Source: Paenibacillus mucilaginosus 3016
Lineage (GTDB): Bacteria > Bacillota > Bacilli > Paenibacillales > NBRC-103111
NCBI RefSeq assembly: GCF_000250655.1
Contig: NC_016935.1
Span: 6,280,001-6,344,000 of the forward strand
Direction: 5' to 3'
Length of the DNA: 64,000 nt
A program made the position numbers and the translations under genes. Positions 2,157-10,860 of this stretch are shown piece after piece; the first letter of the stretch is position 1; every line of letters begins with the position of its first letter. The notes below the pieces were generated by a model, which was given only the letters and a program-made list of their open reading frames with translations, was not told the origin of the DNA and searched no databases.

Positions 2157-2469
2157 CTGCTTTATCCCTCCCAATAGGTTGTCTAGGCTAAATGTATTCA
2201 GACAAGCCGGAAAATAGCACCGGGTACCGGCCGGGACACAGATCCGGAGGGAGCCGAGTGAGGAGCAGCGCAGGCAGGAACTTCAGGGCCTTGCGGGGCA
2301 GGAGGAAGCGCTTGCCTTAGCCTGTCTGTAGACGTTCTTCAGGACAAAATGACGCCCCCGCCTCTTCCGTTCTGCGGGCTTTCGGAGACCGCTCTTAAAA
2401 TTTTCTCAAAAATATGGCATGATAGGGAGTGGCGCAGATCATTTATCGCCAGGAATGGAGTTGTCCCTC
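2157..2469. other. Divergent intergenic region, ATPase / rqcH
   Basis: A 313-bp spacer between divergent genes. It holds a plausible sigma-A promoter for rqcH (listed separately). A short inverted repeat (TTGTCT near 2180, AGACAA near 2200) lies just upstream of the ATPase ribosome binding site. I see no open reading frame with a credible ribosome binding site and no recognisable riboswitch. Confidence 0.5.
2395..2423 (+). promoter_or_regulatory. Putative sigma-A promoter of rqcH
   Basis: TTAAAA at 2395-2400 and CATGAT at 2418-2423 are separated by 17 bp, about 45 bp before the rqcH start. The match to TTGACA/TATAAT is moderate. Confidence 0.45.
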
Positions 2470-4248
2470 ATGTCATTCGACGGTCTCGTCGTCCACTGTC
2501 TCGTCCGCGAGCTTCAGAGCCTCGTAGGCGGCAGAATCAATAAAATCCAGATGCCCACCGAAAACGACATCCTGCTGCAGGTCCGCGCACCGGGCCGCAG
2601 CGTCAAGCTTCTGCTCTCCGCCAACCCGACCTACCCGCGGGTGCATCTCACCGAGGAAAGCTTCCTGAATCCGAAGGAAGCCCCGATGTTCTGCATGCTG
2701 CTGCGCAAGCACTGCGAGGGCGGCATCATCGAGAGCATCGAGCAGCCGGGGCTCGAGCGGATCATCCACTTCGGCATCCGCCAGCGGGATGAGCTCGGGG
2801 ATCTCAGCACCAAAAAGATCATCGTCGAGATCATGGGCCGCCATAGCAATATCATCCTCACCGACCCGGGGGCGGACACGATCATCGACGGCATCCATCA
2901 CGTCACGCCGGCCATCTCCTCCTACCGGATCGTCATGCCGGGCAGTGCCTACACGGCGCCGCCGGAGCAGTACAAGGCGATGCCGCTCGAGGTGGCGGAG
3001 GGGCAGTTCGCCGCCCTGATGACCGAAGCCGCCGAATCGGCCGAGCCGGGTGACGGCGCCGCCCCCCGCTTCTGGGAAGGGGCGCTTGTGCAGCGCTTCA
3101 GCGGCTTCTCCCCGCTGGCCGCCCGCGAGCTTGTCCACCGGGCGTCCGGCGGCGGGACGGTCCTCGAACCGGCCACCGCTCCGGCCCGGCTGTGGCCGCC
3201 GTTCGCGGAGCTGATGCAGCGGCTGCGCGGCGGCGAAGCCGAGCCGGTGATCGTGGAGCAGACCGCCTCCGGCAAGGCCTTCTTCTCCATCCTGCCGCTG
3301 ACGCACATCGAAGGCGAGACCCGGCGGTACCCCACCGTGTCCGAGCTGCTTGAGGCGTATTACAGCGACAAGGCGGAGCGCGATACGGTCAAGCAGCGCG
3401 TGTCCGATCTCATCCGCCTGCTCTCCAACGAGCGCGCCAAGAATGTGAAGAAGCTCGAGAAGCTGCAGGAGACGATGGAGGACGCCCGCGACGCCGACCG
3501 CTTCCGCATCCTCGGAGAGCTCCTGACCGCCTCCATGCACATGCTCCGCAAAGGGGAAAAGCAGATCGAGGTGATCAATTACTATGATGAAGACCAGAAG
3601 CCGGTCGTCATCGAGCTCGATCCCCTGCTGACTCCGTCGGAGAATGCGCAGCGCTACTTCAAGAAATACACGAAGAGCAAAAACTCGCTGATCGCGGTGG
3701 AAGAGCAGATGAACCAGGCCCATGAGGAGATCCGGTACCTGGACACGCTGCTGCAGCAGCTCGCCTCCGCCTCGCTTCCGGATATCGAAGAGATCCGGGA
3801 GGAGCTGATGGAGATGGGCTACCTGCGGGCCCGCGGGCGCAAGGGAACGAAGAAGAAGGCGAACGCAAAGCCGGTGCTCGCCTGCTATACCTCCTCGGAA
3901 GGCATTCCGATCTACGTCGGCAAGAACAACACCCAGAACGAATACCTGACGAACCGGCTCGCCCACGCAGGCGATACCTGGCTGCACACCAAGGACATCC
4001 CGGGCTCGCATGTCGTCATCCGCAGCCCCGAGTTCGGCGAGAGCACGCTGCATGAAGCCGCCCAGCTGGCGGCGTACTTCAGCCAGGCCAAGGAATCCAG
4101 CGGGGTGCCTGTCGACTACACGCTGATCAAGCATGTCCGCAAGCCCAGCGGAGCGAAGCCGGGCTTTGTGATCTACGATCACCAGCGTACGCTGTTCGTG
4201 ACGCCCGATTCCGAGCGGATCAAGGCGCTGCCTGTGGCCTCCAAATAA
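2470..4248 (+). CDS. rqcH: RqcH / NFACT-family ribosome quality control factor (FbpA-like)
   Basis: A 592-aa NFACT protein, the bacterial Rqc2/NEMF homologue. In Bacillus subtilis RqcH binds obstructed 50S subunits and recruits tRNA-Ala to add C-terminal alanine tails that mark stalled peptides for degradation. The family was formerly annotated as fibronectin-binding protein FbpA. The NFACT-N domain (about 1-200, including KIIVEIMGRHSNI), a long central coiled coil (about 300-430), and the NFACT-R domain near 470-570 (IPIYVGKNN, TWLHTKDIPGSHVVIR) are all visible. The start ATG at 2470 (MSFDGLVVH) matches the family start and follows GGAG. An upstream in-frame ATG at 2419 is judged spurious. 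Confidence 0.95.
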   Translation: MSFDGLVVHCLVRELQSLVGGRINKIQMPTENDILLQVRAPGRSVKLLLSANPTYPRVHLTEESFLNPKEAPMFCMLLRKHCEGGIIESIEQPGLERIIHFGIRQRDELGDLSTKKIIVEIMGRHSNIILTDPGADTIIDGIHHVTPAISSYRIVMPGSAYTAPPEQYKAMPLEVAEGQFAALMTEAAESAEPGDGAAPRFWEGALVQRFSGFSPLAARELVHRASGGGTVLEPATAPARLWPPFAELMQRLRGGEAEPVIVEQTASGKAFFSILPLTHIEGETRRYPTVSELLEAYYSDKAERDTVKQRVSDLIRLLSNERAKNVKKLEKLQETMEDARDADRFRILGELLTASMHMLRKGEKQIEVINYYDEDQKPVVIELDPLLTPSENAQRYFKKYTKSKNSLIAVEEQMNQAHEEIRYLDTLLQQLASASLPDIEEIREELMEMGYLRARGRKGTKKKANAKPVLACYTSSEGIPIYVGKNNTQNEYLTNRLAHAGDTWLHTKDIPGSHVVIRSPEFGESTLHEAAQLAAYFSQAKESSGVPVDYTLIKHVRKPSGAKPGFVIYDHQRTLFVTPDSERIKALPVASK

Positions 4249-4718: not shown

Positions 4719-5663
4719 TCAGCCGATCAGCCGCCTCATCTTCTGCACGGCCTCCTGGGCGTCGCCCGCCAAGGTGTGGACGACCTTCGTGCCCGGCAGC
4801 ACGGCATCCCCGGTCACCGAGCGCCCGCCGATGAACACCTTCGTCCGCAGCCCGAGCCCGCCGATCCGGCGGTCCAGCTCGCGGTAGAACGGAAGCGCCG
4901 CCTCCAGCAGCTCCTCCGAGGACGAGCCGAAGGCGAAGGCGGCCGGCTTCATCTGCCCGAGGCAGTCGAAGATCCCCTTCTCGGAGGGCGATGCCCCGAG
5001 ATAGACGATCTGGTAGCCGGCCTGCAGCATGAAATAGCCGAAGAACAGCACCCCCAGCTCGTGCCGCTCTCCCGGGGAACAGGCCGTCACGATCAGCGGG
5101 GTATCGGGAGAGCGGTGATACAGATTGCGGAGCGCCAGCAGCCGCTCCCGGATGAAGTGGCTGCCGAAGTGCTCCTGGTACTCCGAGATCTCCCCGCGTT
5201 CCCAGCGGTCCCCGAGCTCTACGAGCACGGGCGCCAGCACCTGGAGCAGCACAAAGTCCATATGGTGCAGCGCGAGCAGCTGGTCGAAGAACCGCTGCGC
5301 CCCGATCTGGTCCAGCCGCAGAAAAAGCTGCAGCAGGCTTTCCCGGTAATCCGCCGCTTCGCCGTTCGGCTGCTGCAGCGGCAGCACGGCAGGCTCAGAC
5401 TCAGGCTTGGACAGGGCAAGCCCGCCGGGCTCCGGCCCCATCGCTTTGAGCTCTTCGGCCGCGAGCCCGATGGGCACGCCTTCGTCGACCTTACGCTTCA
5501 GATACAGCAGAACCTCGATATCGTTCTTCGTATAGCCCCGGTATCCGTTCGGAAAACGCGAGGGCGATACCGCCCCGTACCGCTCCTCCCACTTGCGGAT
5601 CAACTGTGTCGATAAGCCCGTTCTCATCGACACTTCCTTGATGGTATACAATCGCTGATTCAT
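4719..5663 (-). CDS. MerR-family regulator with B12-binding domain, CarH-like
   Basis: A 314-aa protein. An N-terminal MerR helix-turn-helix (residues 5-60, YTIKEVSMRTGLSTQLIRKW) is followed by a variable linker, a helical cap (about 105-180) and a Rossmann-type cobalamin-binding domain (about 188-310). The cap has W154 followed after nine residues by E164-H165 (W-x9-EH). The Rossmann part has E199-R-H201-E-L-G204 (E-x-H-x-x-G). Both are signatures of adenosylcobalamin photoreceptors of the CarH/LitR group, which repress in the dark and release DNA in light. The ATG at 5663 begins the conserved HTH; an upstream in-frame ATG is less likely. The promoter carries three 11-bp repeats, suggesting autoregulation. 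Light sensing is inferred from motifs only. Confidence 0.85.
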   Translation of the reverse strand: MNQRLYTIKEVSMRTGLSTQLIRKWEERYGAVSPSRFPNGYRGYTKNDIEVLLYLKRKVDEGVPIGLAAEELKAMGPEPGGLALSKPESEPAVLPLQQPNGEAADYRESLLQLFLRLDQIGAQRFFDQLLALHHMDFVLLQVLAPVLVELGDRWERGEISEYQEHFGSHFIRERLLALRNLYHRSPDTPLIVTACSPGERHELGVLFFGYFMLQAGYQIVYLGASPSEKGIFDCLGQMKPAAFAFGSSSEELLEAALPFYRELDRRIGGLGLRTKVFIGGRSVTGDAVLPGTKVVHTLAGDAQEAVQKMRRLIG

Positions 5664-5689
5664 GAAGCCGACCCCCGAACCTTTGGTGG

Positions 5690-5722
5690 CCTCATTATAA
5701 ACCATTTACAAAGCTTATACAA
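5690..5722 (-). promoter_or_regulatory. merR/carH-like promoter with triple 11-bp operator
   Basis: On the minus strand TTGTAT (5722-5717) and TATAAT (5699-5694) are spaced by exactly 17 bp, a near-consensus sigma-A promoter. The same DNA is three consecutive 11-bp units: TTGTATAAGCT, TTGTAAATGGT and TTATAATGAGG. The first two fit the nTnTAnAn pattern described for CarH half-sites, and the third is weaker. A CarH-type tetramer binding three 11-bp direct repeats over the -35 would block this promoter. Confidence 0.65.
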
Positions 5723-5753: not shown

Positions 5754-8700
5754 TCAGGAGCTCAGCGCCGGCAGCAGGATCTCCACCGTGGTGCCGACGC
5801 CCTCCTTCGAGGAGATCTGCATCGTGCCTTGATGGTTCTCGATGATCTTGTACGACACCATGAGTCCGAGGCCCGTGCCCTTGTTCTTCGTGGTGAAGAA
5901 GGGCTCGCCGATCCGGGCCAGCTTGCTCTCGGGGATCCCGAGTCCCTGGTCGATGAAGGAGACCCGCAGTCTCCGGTCTTCCGTACGCTTCGCGCGGACT
6001 GTGATCGTCCCGCCCTTCGGCATCGCCTCGACGCTGTTCTTGAGCACGTTGATGAACACCTGCTTGAGCTGGTTCTCCACGCAGCTCACATACGGCAGCG
6101 GCTCGTCGATCTCCGTTTCGATCTCCACATTCGAGATGATCGCCTGCGTATCGAGCAGCATGATGACGTCCTGGAGAATCGAGGGCACCGACTTCGGCAA
6201 ATAATCGACGGCCTGCGGCTTCGCCAGCACGAGCAGCTCGCTCACGATCTCTTCGATCCGCTCAAGCTCCGCCGACATGATGGCCAGGTAGCTCTCGTTA
6301 TGCCCGCCGGTGCCCATCAGCTTGGTGAAGCCCTTGAGCGCCGTGAGCGGGTTGCGGATCTCGTGCGCGATGCCGGCGGCGAGCTGGCCGACGGCCGAGA
6401 GCATCTCGCTCTTGCGCAGCAGCTCCTCGGTCTGCTTGCGGTCGGAGATATCCTCGGCGATCCGCAGGTAATGCTGGGTCCGTCCCTCGCCGTCCTTGAT
6501 TGGCAGGAACCGCACCGACTCCCAATACGTCTCCCCGTCCTTGCGGCGGCTGTGCAGCTCGCCTCTCCATTCCCGGCCGGAGCTCAGGGTGCTCCAGACC
6601 TCGGTGAAGGAGACCGAGGAGGCCTGCCAGTCGTTGAGCTCCCGGAAGTGGACGCCGATCATCTCGGACTGGGCATGTCCGGTCACCTCGGCGAACTTGG
6701 GGTTCGCGTACATGATTATCCCCTCGAGATTGGCCAGCAGCGTGATCGAAGGGCTCTGCTCGATGGCGTGCGAGAGCTTCAGCAGCTCTTCGTTCGCCGA
6801 TTTGAGCTCCGTAATGTCGACGAACGTCAGCACGATGCCCTTGATGAAGTGATCGCCCGTCCGGTAAGGCAGCACGCGCAGCATGTACCAGCTGCCGCTG
6901 CGGCTCTGGATTTCCTTCTCGACCGGCACGAGGGTCCGAAGCACCGTCTCCGCGTCCTGCACGATGCCTTCGTACAGGAAATTATGCGAGATGTGCCGGA
7001 TCGGACGGCCGTAATCCACCTCGAGGAGATTGATCTCCCGGGTGATCGCCGGCGTGAAGCGCCGGATGCGCATTTCTTTATCGAGAAAAATCGTGCCGAT
7101 CTTCGTGCTCACCAGGAAGTTGTCCATGTCGTTGTTGAGGTCCGTCAGCTCCTGGATCTTGTACTGGTACTCCGTGTTCACCGTGACGAGCTCTTCGTTC
7201 ACCGACTGCAGCTCCTCGTTGGTGCTCATGAGCTCCTCATTGGCTGCGACAAGCTCCTCATTGGTCGCCTGCAGCTCCTCGTTGGACGTCTCCAGCTCTT
7301 CAATGGTCGCCTGAAGAGACTCCTCCGCCCGCTGCAGCTCCTGTTCCAGTTCGACGATCCGCTGGTTCACGTTGTGGTCCATATCGAACGCTTCGGGAAT
7401 CTGCGGGGCCGGCGGCGGCAGATCCGCATCCTCGAAGGTGACGAGCACGAGCCGGTCGAACTTTTTGTTTTTGGTTGAAAACGGCTTCACAGTAAGATTG
7501 ATGTAAGGCGACTGATCGGAATTATTCAGCCTGATGTCCTGGTAGTAGATCGTCCGCTGCTCCTTGCGTACCTTCTGCACCGCGGTGACGATCGCCACCG
7601 CCAGATGCGCCTCCACCATCTTGTAGATGTTCCAGCTCGGCTTGCCCCGGGCCAGCGCCAGATAGGGGTTGATGTTGCCGCTGAGATGGAGCACCTCGTT
7701 GTTCTCGTCGAGGACCATGCAGGGCGGCATATGCTCGTCCACGAAGGAGGTGTAGAGATCGTCGGGCTTGCGGTACGCCGGGATCTCCCTCAGCGTGGTG
7801 TAGCCTCGGCGCGCCAGCTGGTGCACCTTCGTGATGTCCACGCTGTCGCTGACCTCCACCGCACTCGGAATCGGGGACCCGGACATCCGGCTGCGCTGCT
7901 GGAAGATGTTCCACTTCCGGTCGAAGGCGTAGAACAGGGAGCTCAGCTTGCCCACCGTCTCACTCGGGCCAAGGAACATAAAGCCGTTCGGATTCAGCGC
8001 AAAATGAAACAAGGACAGCACCTTCTGCTGCACGTCGGACTGAAGGTAGATCAGCATATTGCGGCAGGTCACCAGGTCCAGGTTGCTGAACGGTGGGTCC
8101 TTGGTAATGTTATGGGGAGCAAACACGACCATCTTGCGGATGCTCTTGCTCACCTGGTAGTTCTCGCCGACCTGGGTGAAGTGTTGCTGCAGAAGCTCGG
8201 AAGGAACGCTCCGCACGGCGGATTCGGGATATACCCCCTGGGAGGCATACTCGATCGAATCCCTGTCGAGATCCGTAGCAAAAATCTTCACCGTGTAAGG
8301 CAGCTCCTGCCCCGAGATCAGCTCATCGAAAAGCATGGCCAGAGAATAGGCCTCCTCACCGGTCGAGCAGCCGGCCACCCAGATGCGGATGTGCCCCTCC
8401 CGCTTCTTGTTCTCGATAATGGCCGGCAGCACTTTGACGCGAAGGATCTCGAAGGCCTCCGGGTCCCGGAAAAAATGCGTCACGCCGATAAGCAGATCCT
8501 TGCTCAGGCTCGCCAGCTCGTCCGGCTGGTTCCCGAGCAGGCGCAGGTAGGCATCGGAGGTGGTGACGCCGAGCAGATTCATCCGCCGCTCGATCCGGCG
8601 TAAGATGCTGTTCTCCTTGTAGTAGCTGAAGTCAATCCCGCTTGCGTTCTTGAGCAGCTCAAGGAAAGACGGCAGGGACAGCAGGTCAAGCCGGCCGCTG

Positions 8701-9350
8701 CTGCCCGGGTCGCTCTCCCCGTCCTCCCACTCGATCTCCGGATCTCCGGTGGTCCACTCGATCAGGTAGTCGGCCATCGCCTGAGGGGTCATCACCTGGT
8801 CGACGATGCCGGTCAGACGGGCGCTGTTCGGCATGCCGTCGAACTTGGCCGTAAGCTCGTCCTGCACGATCACAAGCCCGCCGTGCTCCTTGATCGCCTC
8901 GACGCCGCGCGTTCCGTCGCTTCCCGTTCCCGAGAGAATCACCCCGATCGCCCGGCTGCCGATATCCTTGGCCAGCGAGGTTAAGAACATATCGATCGGC
9001 AGGTTGAGTCCGGTCGTCTGCCGGTGCTCGGTCACCTGCAGCGTGCGCCCGGCGATCGTCATGTCCTTTTTGGGAGGAATGAGATACACGCAGTTGGGGC
9101 GCACCTCCATGAGATGCTCCGCCTCATAAATATTCATGGATGTGTTCTTCGTCAGGATCTCGGCCATAAAGCTCTTGTAATTCGGAGACAAGTGCTGAAC
9201 GACAACGAAAGAAAGCCCGCAGTCGGGCCTCATATGGTCAAAAAACTGCTGAAGCGCCTCAAGCCCCCCCGCGGATGCGCCGATCCCGACGATAAATCCG
9301 CCGGGAGGGGATTGTTCCTGCACATCCTGTTCCGATAGAATGGTGCTCAT
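5754..9350 (-). CDS. CheB-CheR-PAS-histidine kinase multidomain sensor
   Basis: A 1198-aa protein, probably cytosolic, since I see no membrane segment. Domains in order: a CheB-type methylesterase (about 20-200; [12 protein letters not shown] with the catalytic Ser, [17 protein letters not shown]), a CheR-type methyltransferase (about 225-480; SAM motif [13 protein letters not shown] and NMLIYLQ), a PAS-like segment (about 530-640), a heptad coiled coil rich in NEEL repeats (about 655-735), two PAS domains (about 740-955), a HisKA motif ([10 protein letters not shown]) and an HATPase_c domain ending with [13 protein letters not shown]. CheB lacks its usual receiver domain, and no response regulator lies nearby. 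The ATG at 9350 is preferred over the in-frame GTG at 9374 because AAGAGG lies nine bases before it. Confidence 0.92.
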
Positions 9351-9415
9351 CTGCCTCAACCTCTTTTCCAGCACGGACGCGGCTTGATTTTGCAGCAGTC
9401 AAACCGTGACCTGGG

Positions 9416-9599: not shown

Positions 9600-10268
9600 A
9601 TGAACTTTCACGCCGAACTCTTGGCCGAAACCCTGCTGTCGGGCGACTTCAAGGCTTCTTGGAGCCTGATCGGCAGCCAGCGGGAGGCCGGCAAAAATTC
9701 GCTGTATATATACACCCGGCTGCTGACTCCCGCGATGCGGTACATCGGGGATCTCTGGGAGCAGAACTCGGTCTCCGTCGCGGACGAGCACCTGGCTTCC
9801 TCGGTGTGCGACCGGCTCCTCACCCACTATGCGGCCGGCCGGGAGCCGCTTCAGAGCACGGCCGGCAAGGCCATGTTCCTCTGCATGGAACAGGAGATGC
9901 ACTTTCTCGGACTCAAGACGATCTCCTCCTACTTTCAGGAATGCGGCTGGCATACGCGCTTCTACGGCCCGAACCTGCCGCTCGAATACGCCTTGATCGC
10001 GGCTTCGAACTGGAAGCCCCAGGTCATCGGCATCTCGGTTTCCATGGTCTATGCGCTGCCGGCGCTGTCCGCTTATATCGAAGCCTTCGAAGCCCTCCCG
10101 CACCGCCCCGTCGTCCTTCTCGGGGGACGCCTCGCCTCCCGCTACCGGCTCCAGCCCCACGGTTCCCCCTCGACCGTCATTCTCCCCGAAATGGAAGATG
10201 TGCAGGATTGGATGAGCTCCTATGCCCGGGCCGGCGGGCTGCTCCGCTCCGAGAAAGGCTTAGGGTGA
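9600..10268 (+). CDS. Stand-alone B12-binding protein with photoreceptor motifs
   Basis: A 222-aa protein made only of a helical cap (about 1-80) and a Rossmann cobalamin-binding domain (about 88-210). W53 is followed after nine residues by E63-H64, and E99-M-H101-F-L-G104 forms the lower-ligand motif, so both hallmarks of adenosylcobalamin light sensors are present. There is no DNA-binding domain, so it must act on a partner. The stand-alone B12 protein AerR of purple bacteria, which modulates the repressor CrtJ, is a precedent for this architecture. The gene is divergent from the CheB-CheR kinase and seven bases upstream of a PAS-like gene, its probable partner. The start at 9600 follows AAGAAGGTGAA. 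Confidence 0.85.
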   Translation: MNFHAELLAETLLSGDFKASWSLIGSQREAGKNSLYIYTRLLTPAMRYIGDLWEQNSVSVADEHLASSVCDRLLTHYAAGREPLQSTAGKAMFLCMEQEMHFLGLKTISSYFQECGWHTRFYGPNLPLEYALIAASNWKPQVIGISVSMVYALPALSAYIEAFEALPHRPVVLLGGRLASRYRLQPHGSPSTVILPEMEDVQDWMSSYARAGGLLRSEKGLG

Positions 10269-10275
10269 GGGGCTG

Positions 10276-10860
10276 ATGGGAATGCAGGCCTGCCGCTTGC
10301 CGCTGCCTTACTTCCGCGTCAACGCGTCGCTCCGGATCCTCGACCGGTCAGACGAGGCGGAGCTGCTGTTCCCCGGGGCATCGGAGATGGCCGGGATCAC
10401 GGATGAAGGCTCCCTGGAGAAGCTGCGACGGTTCGTACGGCCCGGCAGCGTCACCCGTCTGGAGCTTAACTTCCTGTGCGGCACGGACCGGCGGCCCCAG
10501 CTCTTCGAGCTGCACCAGCAGTGGGAGGAAGAGAGCGCAGCGGCCCACCTGCTGCTCTGCCCGCTGCAGGACCGGCTTCAGCGCATGCAGGACACGATGG
10601 AGCAGCTGCGCCGGGATCTGCGCCAGCCGGGTGGAGCGGCGCCGCCGGGCCTCCGCCCGCTGAGCGCGGCACCCGCCCGGACTTCCGCCCCCTCCCCCGC
10701 AGCGCCGGGGGCCATCCGCGAGGCGATCCATGCGCTGGAGACCATCGAGGACCTGATCGGCATCATCCGGCCGGACATGACGGAAGCCGGCAAGGACGCG
10801 TATGCGGTTCTGCTGCTGGAGCAGGCCGCCTTAGCCAGAGGTCATCTGGAGCGGCTGTGA
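10276..10860 (+). CDS. Small PAS-like protein co-transcribed with the B12 sensor
   Basis: A 194-aa protein I cannot assign to a named family. The first 90 residues resemble a PAS fold: PYFRVNASLRILDRSDEAELLF, with residues in the usual positions of the first strand and helix. A helical stretch (about 90-120), a Pro/Ala-rich linker (about 120-150) and a final helix (about 150-194) follow. It starts seven bases after the B12 gene stop, so the two are almost certainly one transcript. The start could be the ATG at 10276 or the one at 10282. There is no kinase or DNA-binding motif, so an adaptor role is a guess from context. Confidence 0.6.
   Translation: MGMQACRLPLPYFRVNASLRILDRSDEAELLFPGASEMAGITDEGSLEKLRRFVRPGSVTRLELNFLCGTDRRPQLFELHQQWEEESAAAHLLLCPLQDRLQRMQDTMEQLRRDLRQPGGAAPPGLRPLSAAPARTSAPSPAAPGAIREAIHALETIEDLIGIIRPDMTEAGKDAYAVLLLEQAALARGHLERL

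Follow-up and report, generated by a model that had tools for sequence, protein, structure and literature searches.

A CarH-like regulator of Paenibacillus mucilaginosus 3016 shares its tandem 11-bp operator with unlinked carotenoid genes

Background

Which genes are controlled by a MerR-type regulator with a cobalamin-binding domain that is encoded away from carotenoid genes, and does it respond to light? This question is raised by a gene in the window, as we call the whole stretch of 64,000 nucleotides analysed here (6.28-6.34 Mb in the 8.74-Mb genome of P. mucilaginosus 3016, whose nearest named relatives are Paenibacillus). A first-pass annotation described the product as a CarH-like, autoregulated light or B12 sensor and concluded from its position outside a carotenoid cluster that its regulon may be different. 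Our literature search found no study of B12- or light-controlled carotenoid synthesis in Paenibacillaceae. The analysis presented here predicts such control in this family and names candidate binding sites: it is likely that a CarH-like repressor acts on its own gene and on the unlinked crtM and crtN genes and is released by light. Regulation of this type has been described in other bacteria; it is the unusual B12 pocket that sets the branch apart. With this protein, nature also provides a CarH-like variant in which the pocket requirements of the light switch could be examined.

Results and discussion

The regulator gene (4719-5663, minus strand) encodes 314 amino acids comprising a MerR DNA-binding domain, a flexible linker, and helical and Rossmann B12-binding domains. 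Orthologues favour the ATG at 5663 over an alternative ATG at 5705, which overlaps the -10 box. The gene is apparently monocistronic and convergent with a gene encoding an NFACT-domain protein (2419-4248, plus strand). The recognition region of the MerR-type domain (residues 4-73; 5445-5654, minus strand), LSTQLIRKWEERYxAVxPxRxPNGYRGYT, is kept across the clade, and the cobalamin-binding region (residues 100-314; 4722-5366, minus strand) aligns structurally to Thermus thermophilus CarH (TtCarH) and photocobilins. Both motifs reported in the first-pass annotation were confirmed. These are Wx9EH (W154-x9-E164-H165, WERGEISEYQEH, residues 154-165; 5169-5204, minus strand), with Glu at the positions equivalent to 132 and 138 of TtCarH, and ExHxxG (E199-R-H201-E-L-G204, ERHELG, residues 199-204; 5052-5069, minus strand), which contains the lower axial His, corresponding to His177 of TtCarH. 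Pfam models PF13411 and PF02607 scored above cut-off and PF02310 below it (22.9 versus 32.1 bits).

The best solved relatives by sequence are CarH/LitR of T. thermophilus. A structure model, for which 36 sequences were used, reached a mean pLDDT of 89.7, and its cobalamin domain aligned to TtCarH with Z ~22 and an rmsd of about 2.2; the cobalamin domains of photocobilins also aligned at Z ~22. TtCarH (PDB 5C8A, 5C8D-F, 8C31-37) has in common with the window protein the order of MerR, four-helix and Rossmann B12 domains, Wx9EH, ExHxxG and a tandem 11-bp operator reaching the -35 region. Wx9EH and the axial His are nearly invariant among relatives and present in every tabulated clade member except one. 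In this exception (L030, 1495-2430, G097), Trp and His of Wx9EH are gone and the operator upstream is missing; it may be a B12-independent relative.

On the minus strand, the promoter of this carH-like gene (carH below) consists of three consecutive 11-bp units, TTGTATAAGCT, TTGTAAATGGT and TTATAATGAGG. The first six bases of unit 1 (5712-5722, minus strand) form a weak -35 box, the conserved unit 2 (5701-5711, minus strand) lies within the -35/-10 spacer, and unit 3 (5690-5700, minus strand) is mostly the -10 box. The latter, TATAAT (5694-5699, minus strand), is a perfect match and is located 17 bp downstream of TTGTAT (5722-5717). Despite this spacing and the perfect -10 box, the sigma-70 scan did not call the promoter, because TTGTAT shares only 3 of 6 bases with the consensus TTGACA. 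In published work, a CarH repeat is defined by TnnACA on the opposite strand (PMC9304148). Units 1 and 2 qualify as true repeats by this definition; unit 3 is only a pseudo-repeat, whose similarity to the other two is mostly due to TATAAT. Hence, of the three direct units previously proposed to span the -35 to -10 region, two hold and the third has to be downgraded, as has the -35 box.

The first-pass annotation had regarded missing conservation of the repeats upstream of orthologues as an argument against its proposal, and had suggested a genome search for repeats at 11-bp spacing. Searches of this kind located the three-unit site before the regulator gene in 16 of 18 genomes and gave few matches elsewhere; searches with two units led to further sites, at carotenoid and other genes. 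Upstream of the orthologues, which belong to several genera, a block of 29 bases with sharp edges is conserved. Across 14 distinct promoters of orthologues, the information content averaged 1.62 bits per base in unit 1, 1.51 in unit 2 and 1.11 in unit 3, compared to 0.18 upstream and 0.29 downstream. That the repeats merely represent a conserved strong promoter and no operator might be suspected from the coincidence of unit 1 with the -35 and of unit 3 with the -10 box. We consider this highly improbable: the -35/-10 spacer is conserved as much as the hexamers, which is unexpected for a promoter alone, the promoter of L013 retains units 1 and 2 although TATAAT is lost, and units at exact 11-bp spacing recur at carotenoid genes. 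In lysR-php-carH operons, which have carH in third place, the operator is absent directly 5' of carH.

Two further candidates were discarded. An inverted-repeat reading (TTGTAAA-TGG-TTTATAA) is kept neither in L016 and L024 nor at the carotenoid sites, and the direct-repeat reading was preferred. At G000:C1:2572559, an AT-rich match with 2 mismatches precedes the gene of a DeoR-type regulator and a set of iol-like genes; it was taken as chance.

In TtCarH and here the operator reaches the -35 region, but the operator described here covers the stretch from -35 to -10 in front of its own regulator gene and has counterparts at an unlinked carotenoid locus. Bacillus (Priestia) megaterium possesses a CarH/LitR protein that, by published description, is likewise a CarH of the Bacillota controlling carotenoid genes. 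Its operators consist of four 11-bp repeats, or three and a pseudo-repeat, over the -35 or -10 (PMC9304148; PMC6739363), in contrast to the two repeats and a pseudo-repeat at the window regulator gene.

The regulon was approached by genome-wide pattern searches, and matrix scans were applied to the window and selected regions. Four exact two-unit sites were found by pattern search in the own genome, compared to none with the reversed control. They precede a divergent crtM/crtN pair, a gene for a CrtD-like desaturase, a Rieske gene, and a flavin monooxygenase gene with a methyltransferase gene downstream of it. The assignment of crtM is based on PF00494 (5.7e-76) and that of crtN on a score of 507.7 bits with TIGR02734, the phytoene desaturase family (cut-off 238.1). 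The crtM-crtN operator is located 2.7 Mb from carH, and the matrix scan added a second site in this region (scores 22.0 and 17.9). These sites contain two units each, not three, and their second unit (AGTATAA or TGGACAC) is somewhat unlike the carH units. Both sites also occur in G002, G014, G048 and G063, and in G071, G117, G118, G120 and G123-G126 the crtN operon has two or three units in front of it. In total, 11-bp units before carotenoid genes were found in 13 of 13 examined genomes that bear these genes and have this protein as the only CarH/LitR-type regulator; the own genome is included, and as the genomes are related these counts are not independent. Dinucleotide shuffles of each carotenoid region reached the observed number of units in 0-13 of 1000 cases, and with six alternative spacings nearly all regions contained no more than one unit. 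The first-pass annotation was right that the gene is unlinked to carotenoid genes, but its expectation of a different regulon is not borne out, since operator sites are present at these genes in trans.

It might be argued that another regulator reads the carotenoid units and that the window protein controls only itself. The deviating second units in the own genome would fit this idea, as would the LitR-type copies of other Paenibacillaceae, which have similar TGTAnAA units before their own genes, so that the unit sequence alone is not protein-specific. We nevertheless regard it as quite unlikely, because in the 13 genomes no MerR-B12 regulator besides the orthologue was found at E <= 1e-6; the few extra weak matches cover the B12 region only. 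Moreover, of 28 genomes encoding the regulator 17 gave a strong crtM match, compared to 0 of 19 relatives without it (Fisher p 8e-6, relatedness uncorrected). In the remaining 11 of 28 genomes, where the regulator occurs without a strong crtM, further targets probably exist. An adenosyltransferase making AdoCbl is encoded in 28 of 28 genomes with the regulator, which is a necessary but unspecific condition. A comparable arrangement is found in the Sorangiineae, where carH of L. luteola is unlinked to the carotenoid genes and preceded by tandem repeats; there the carotenoid promoters are without a site, whereas here sites are found at both carH and carotenoid genes (PMC9304148).

The preferred reading therefore is a CarH-like repressor with carotenoid synthesis as its putative regulon in trans. 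Working like CarH at the DNA level is the better-supported half of this claim, and in the dark it very likely silences itself and the distant carotenoid genes. We infer all four of its elements: binding of the protein to the operator units, binding of AdoCbl, release by light, and the direction of regulation. By analogy with CarH of T. thermophilus and B. megaterium, the AdoCbl-bound repressor would in the dark most likely oligomerise on the tandem 11-bp TGTAnAA units and block its own promoter as well as the unlinked crtM/crtN promoters. The CrtD-like desaturase, the flavin monooxygenase-methyltransferase pair and the Rieske gene are probable further repressed targets. Light would free the repressor from DNA, so that carotenoid synthesis and the repressor itself rise. 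Such a response would be self-limiting, as autorepression via the same operator would let the repressor climb on illumination and reset the system.

Several other sites deserve mention. Flavin monooxygenase and methyltransferase genes are present both in the own genome (L224, 5655-8130, near 7.72 Mb) and in G016 (L118); the operator recurs in G016 before the 86%-identical monooxygenase orthologue. In G048, G058, G063 and G067 (L226-L228, L230) a conserved site lies near a small gene, a weak case confined to close relatives. CarH-type 11-bp units directly precede chemoreceptor-like genes sharing 36% identity in G002 (L156, 7156-8532) and G043 (L132, 1492-2737), which hints at light-controlled taxis in some relatives. 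In G002, tandem TTGTATAA-type units were also found immediately 5' of a gene for a 137-aa STAS-like protein (L233, 2991-3034).

The cobalamin-binding domain, which shares about 28% identity with that of TtCarH, departs from published CarH signatures in several residues. Position 138 is Glu throughout the clade; the residue is Val in TtCarH, and Val, Val, Pro or Ile among the solved photoreceptors. Position 132, His in TtCarH, is Glu and rarely Ala in the clade, and bis-His ligation as in TtCarH is therefore unavailable. One published signature consists of x41, SxV/T and, after 22-27 residues, GG (PMC8156234). Here x41 is kept, but it is followed by GSS (S/G-x-S in most relatives), and the distance to GG is 30 residues in nearly all relatives; the window protein has an extra GG at 19 inside this stretch. 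From the SignatureFinder elements of light-responsive cobalamin domains, GxxW, EH, GxxH and GxxxP (PMC11796333), the first three are present as GDRW, EH and GERH, and the fourth is replaced by GASPS, a GxxP loop that also distinguishes the protein from TtCarH. The NCBIfam CarH equivalog NF052513 gave 145 bits against a cut-off of 400. On the other hand, the MerR and cobalamin-binding domains, Wx9EH, ExHx2G with the axial His, and a tandem 11-bp TnnACA operator (two repeats and a pseudo-repeat at carH, two to three units at carotenoid genes) agree with CarH membership. The protein is best filed as a CarH-like variant and not as a strict CarH, since several of the defining signatures do not match. 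The earlier description as CarH-like and autoregulated is thus upheld by sequence, fold and conserved operator, with the reservation that several pocket residues are unlike the published signatures.

LitR-type copies in other Paenibacillaceae (L031-L041) show about 28% identity and share Wx9EH with Glu132 and 11-bp TGTAnAA-like units upstream of their own genes; Glu132 was consequently dropped as a mark of the clade. Unlike the window clade, these copies have the canonical Val/Ile138, mostly a GxxTP loop with SxT, and 26 residues to GG, and some adjoin carotenoid genes (L131, L192). Glu138 and the GxxP loop also occur in a related regulator (about 30% identity) of two Bacillota MAGs (L062, L063, 8001-8930) with entirely different neighbours.

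These substitutions may be taken to indicate a B12-independent or light-insensitive repressor resembling CarA, which would repress itself and the carotenoid genes through the same sites in response to another trigger, its altered pocket either not binding AdoCbl or not coupling light to DNA release. Besides the clade-wide Glu138 in the Wx9EH helix, GxxP for GxxxP, S/G-x-S for SxT/V and the 30 residues to GG, this is suggested by the H132A variant of TtCarH, which mostly stays tetrameric in light (PMC10442372), as the clade has no His132. We consider it unlikely, since conservation of Wx9EH and the axial His extends to every tabulated member except one, whereas CarA has lost the Trp of Wx9EH (PMC9304148). 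Furthermore, CtMerR (Arg at position 132) and photocobilins (Gln, Tyr) are light-responsive despite lacking His132 (PMC11796333), and Glu132 is also present in the LitR-type copies. CtMerR and photocobilins (PDB 8JBS, 8J2W, 8J2Y) match the window protein structurally in the cobalamin domain, but have Ile, Val or Pro138, GxxxP and other output domains. Vitamin-B12-based light sensing by the window protein is probable. A further, rather doubtful possibility is that this Paenibacillaceae clade has a CarH pocket remodelled on its adenosyl side (Glu138, shifted Pro loop, no SxT), and either reads a different corrinoid or corrinoid state or has a light switch needing neither bis-His ligation nor the usual pocket.

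Directly upstream of carH, a 1206-aa CheB-CheR-PAS-histidine kinase fusion is encoded (5754-9374, minus strand). It adjoins carH also in P. caseinilyticus (L043), possibly as part of a light or stress signalling island. Divergent from it, a gene at 9600-10268 (plus strand) encodes a standalone cobalamin-binding protein of 222 aa that has no DNA-binding domain and carries Wx9EH with Val138, ExHxxG and GxxxP. It is rare (5 of 117 genomes), and its best solved relatives are CtMerR and photocobilins. Control of either gene by the operator was rejected, as the matrix scan of the window revealed no site between 9374 and 9600. The downstream gene (10276-10860, plus strand) encodes 194 aa without a Pfam match. 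A second B12 photosensor candidate of the own genome (L150, 1395-2462, near 0.445 Mb) comprises 355 aa with Wx9EH, and photocobilins are its nearest relatives (E 2.5e-23). In two photocobilins, the C-terminal region with the biliverdin domain is weakly similar to the N-terminal part of this candidate (domain E 0.55-0.81); the domain order would then be swapped.
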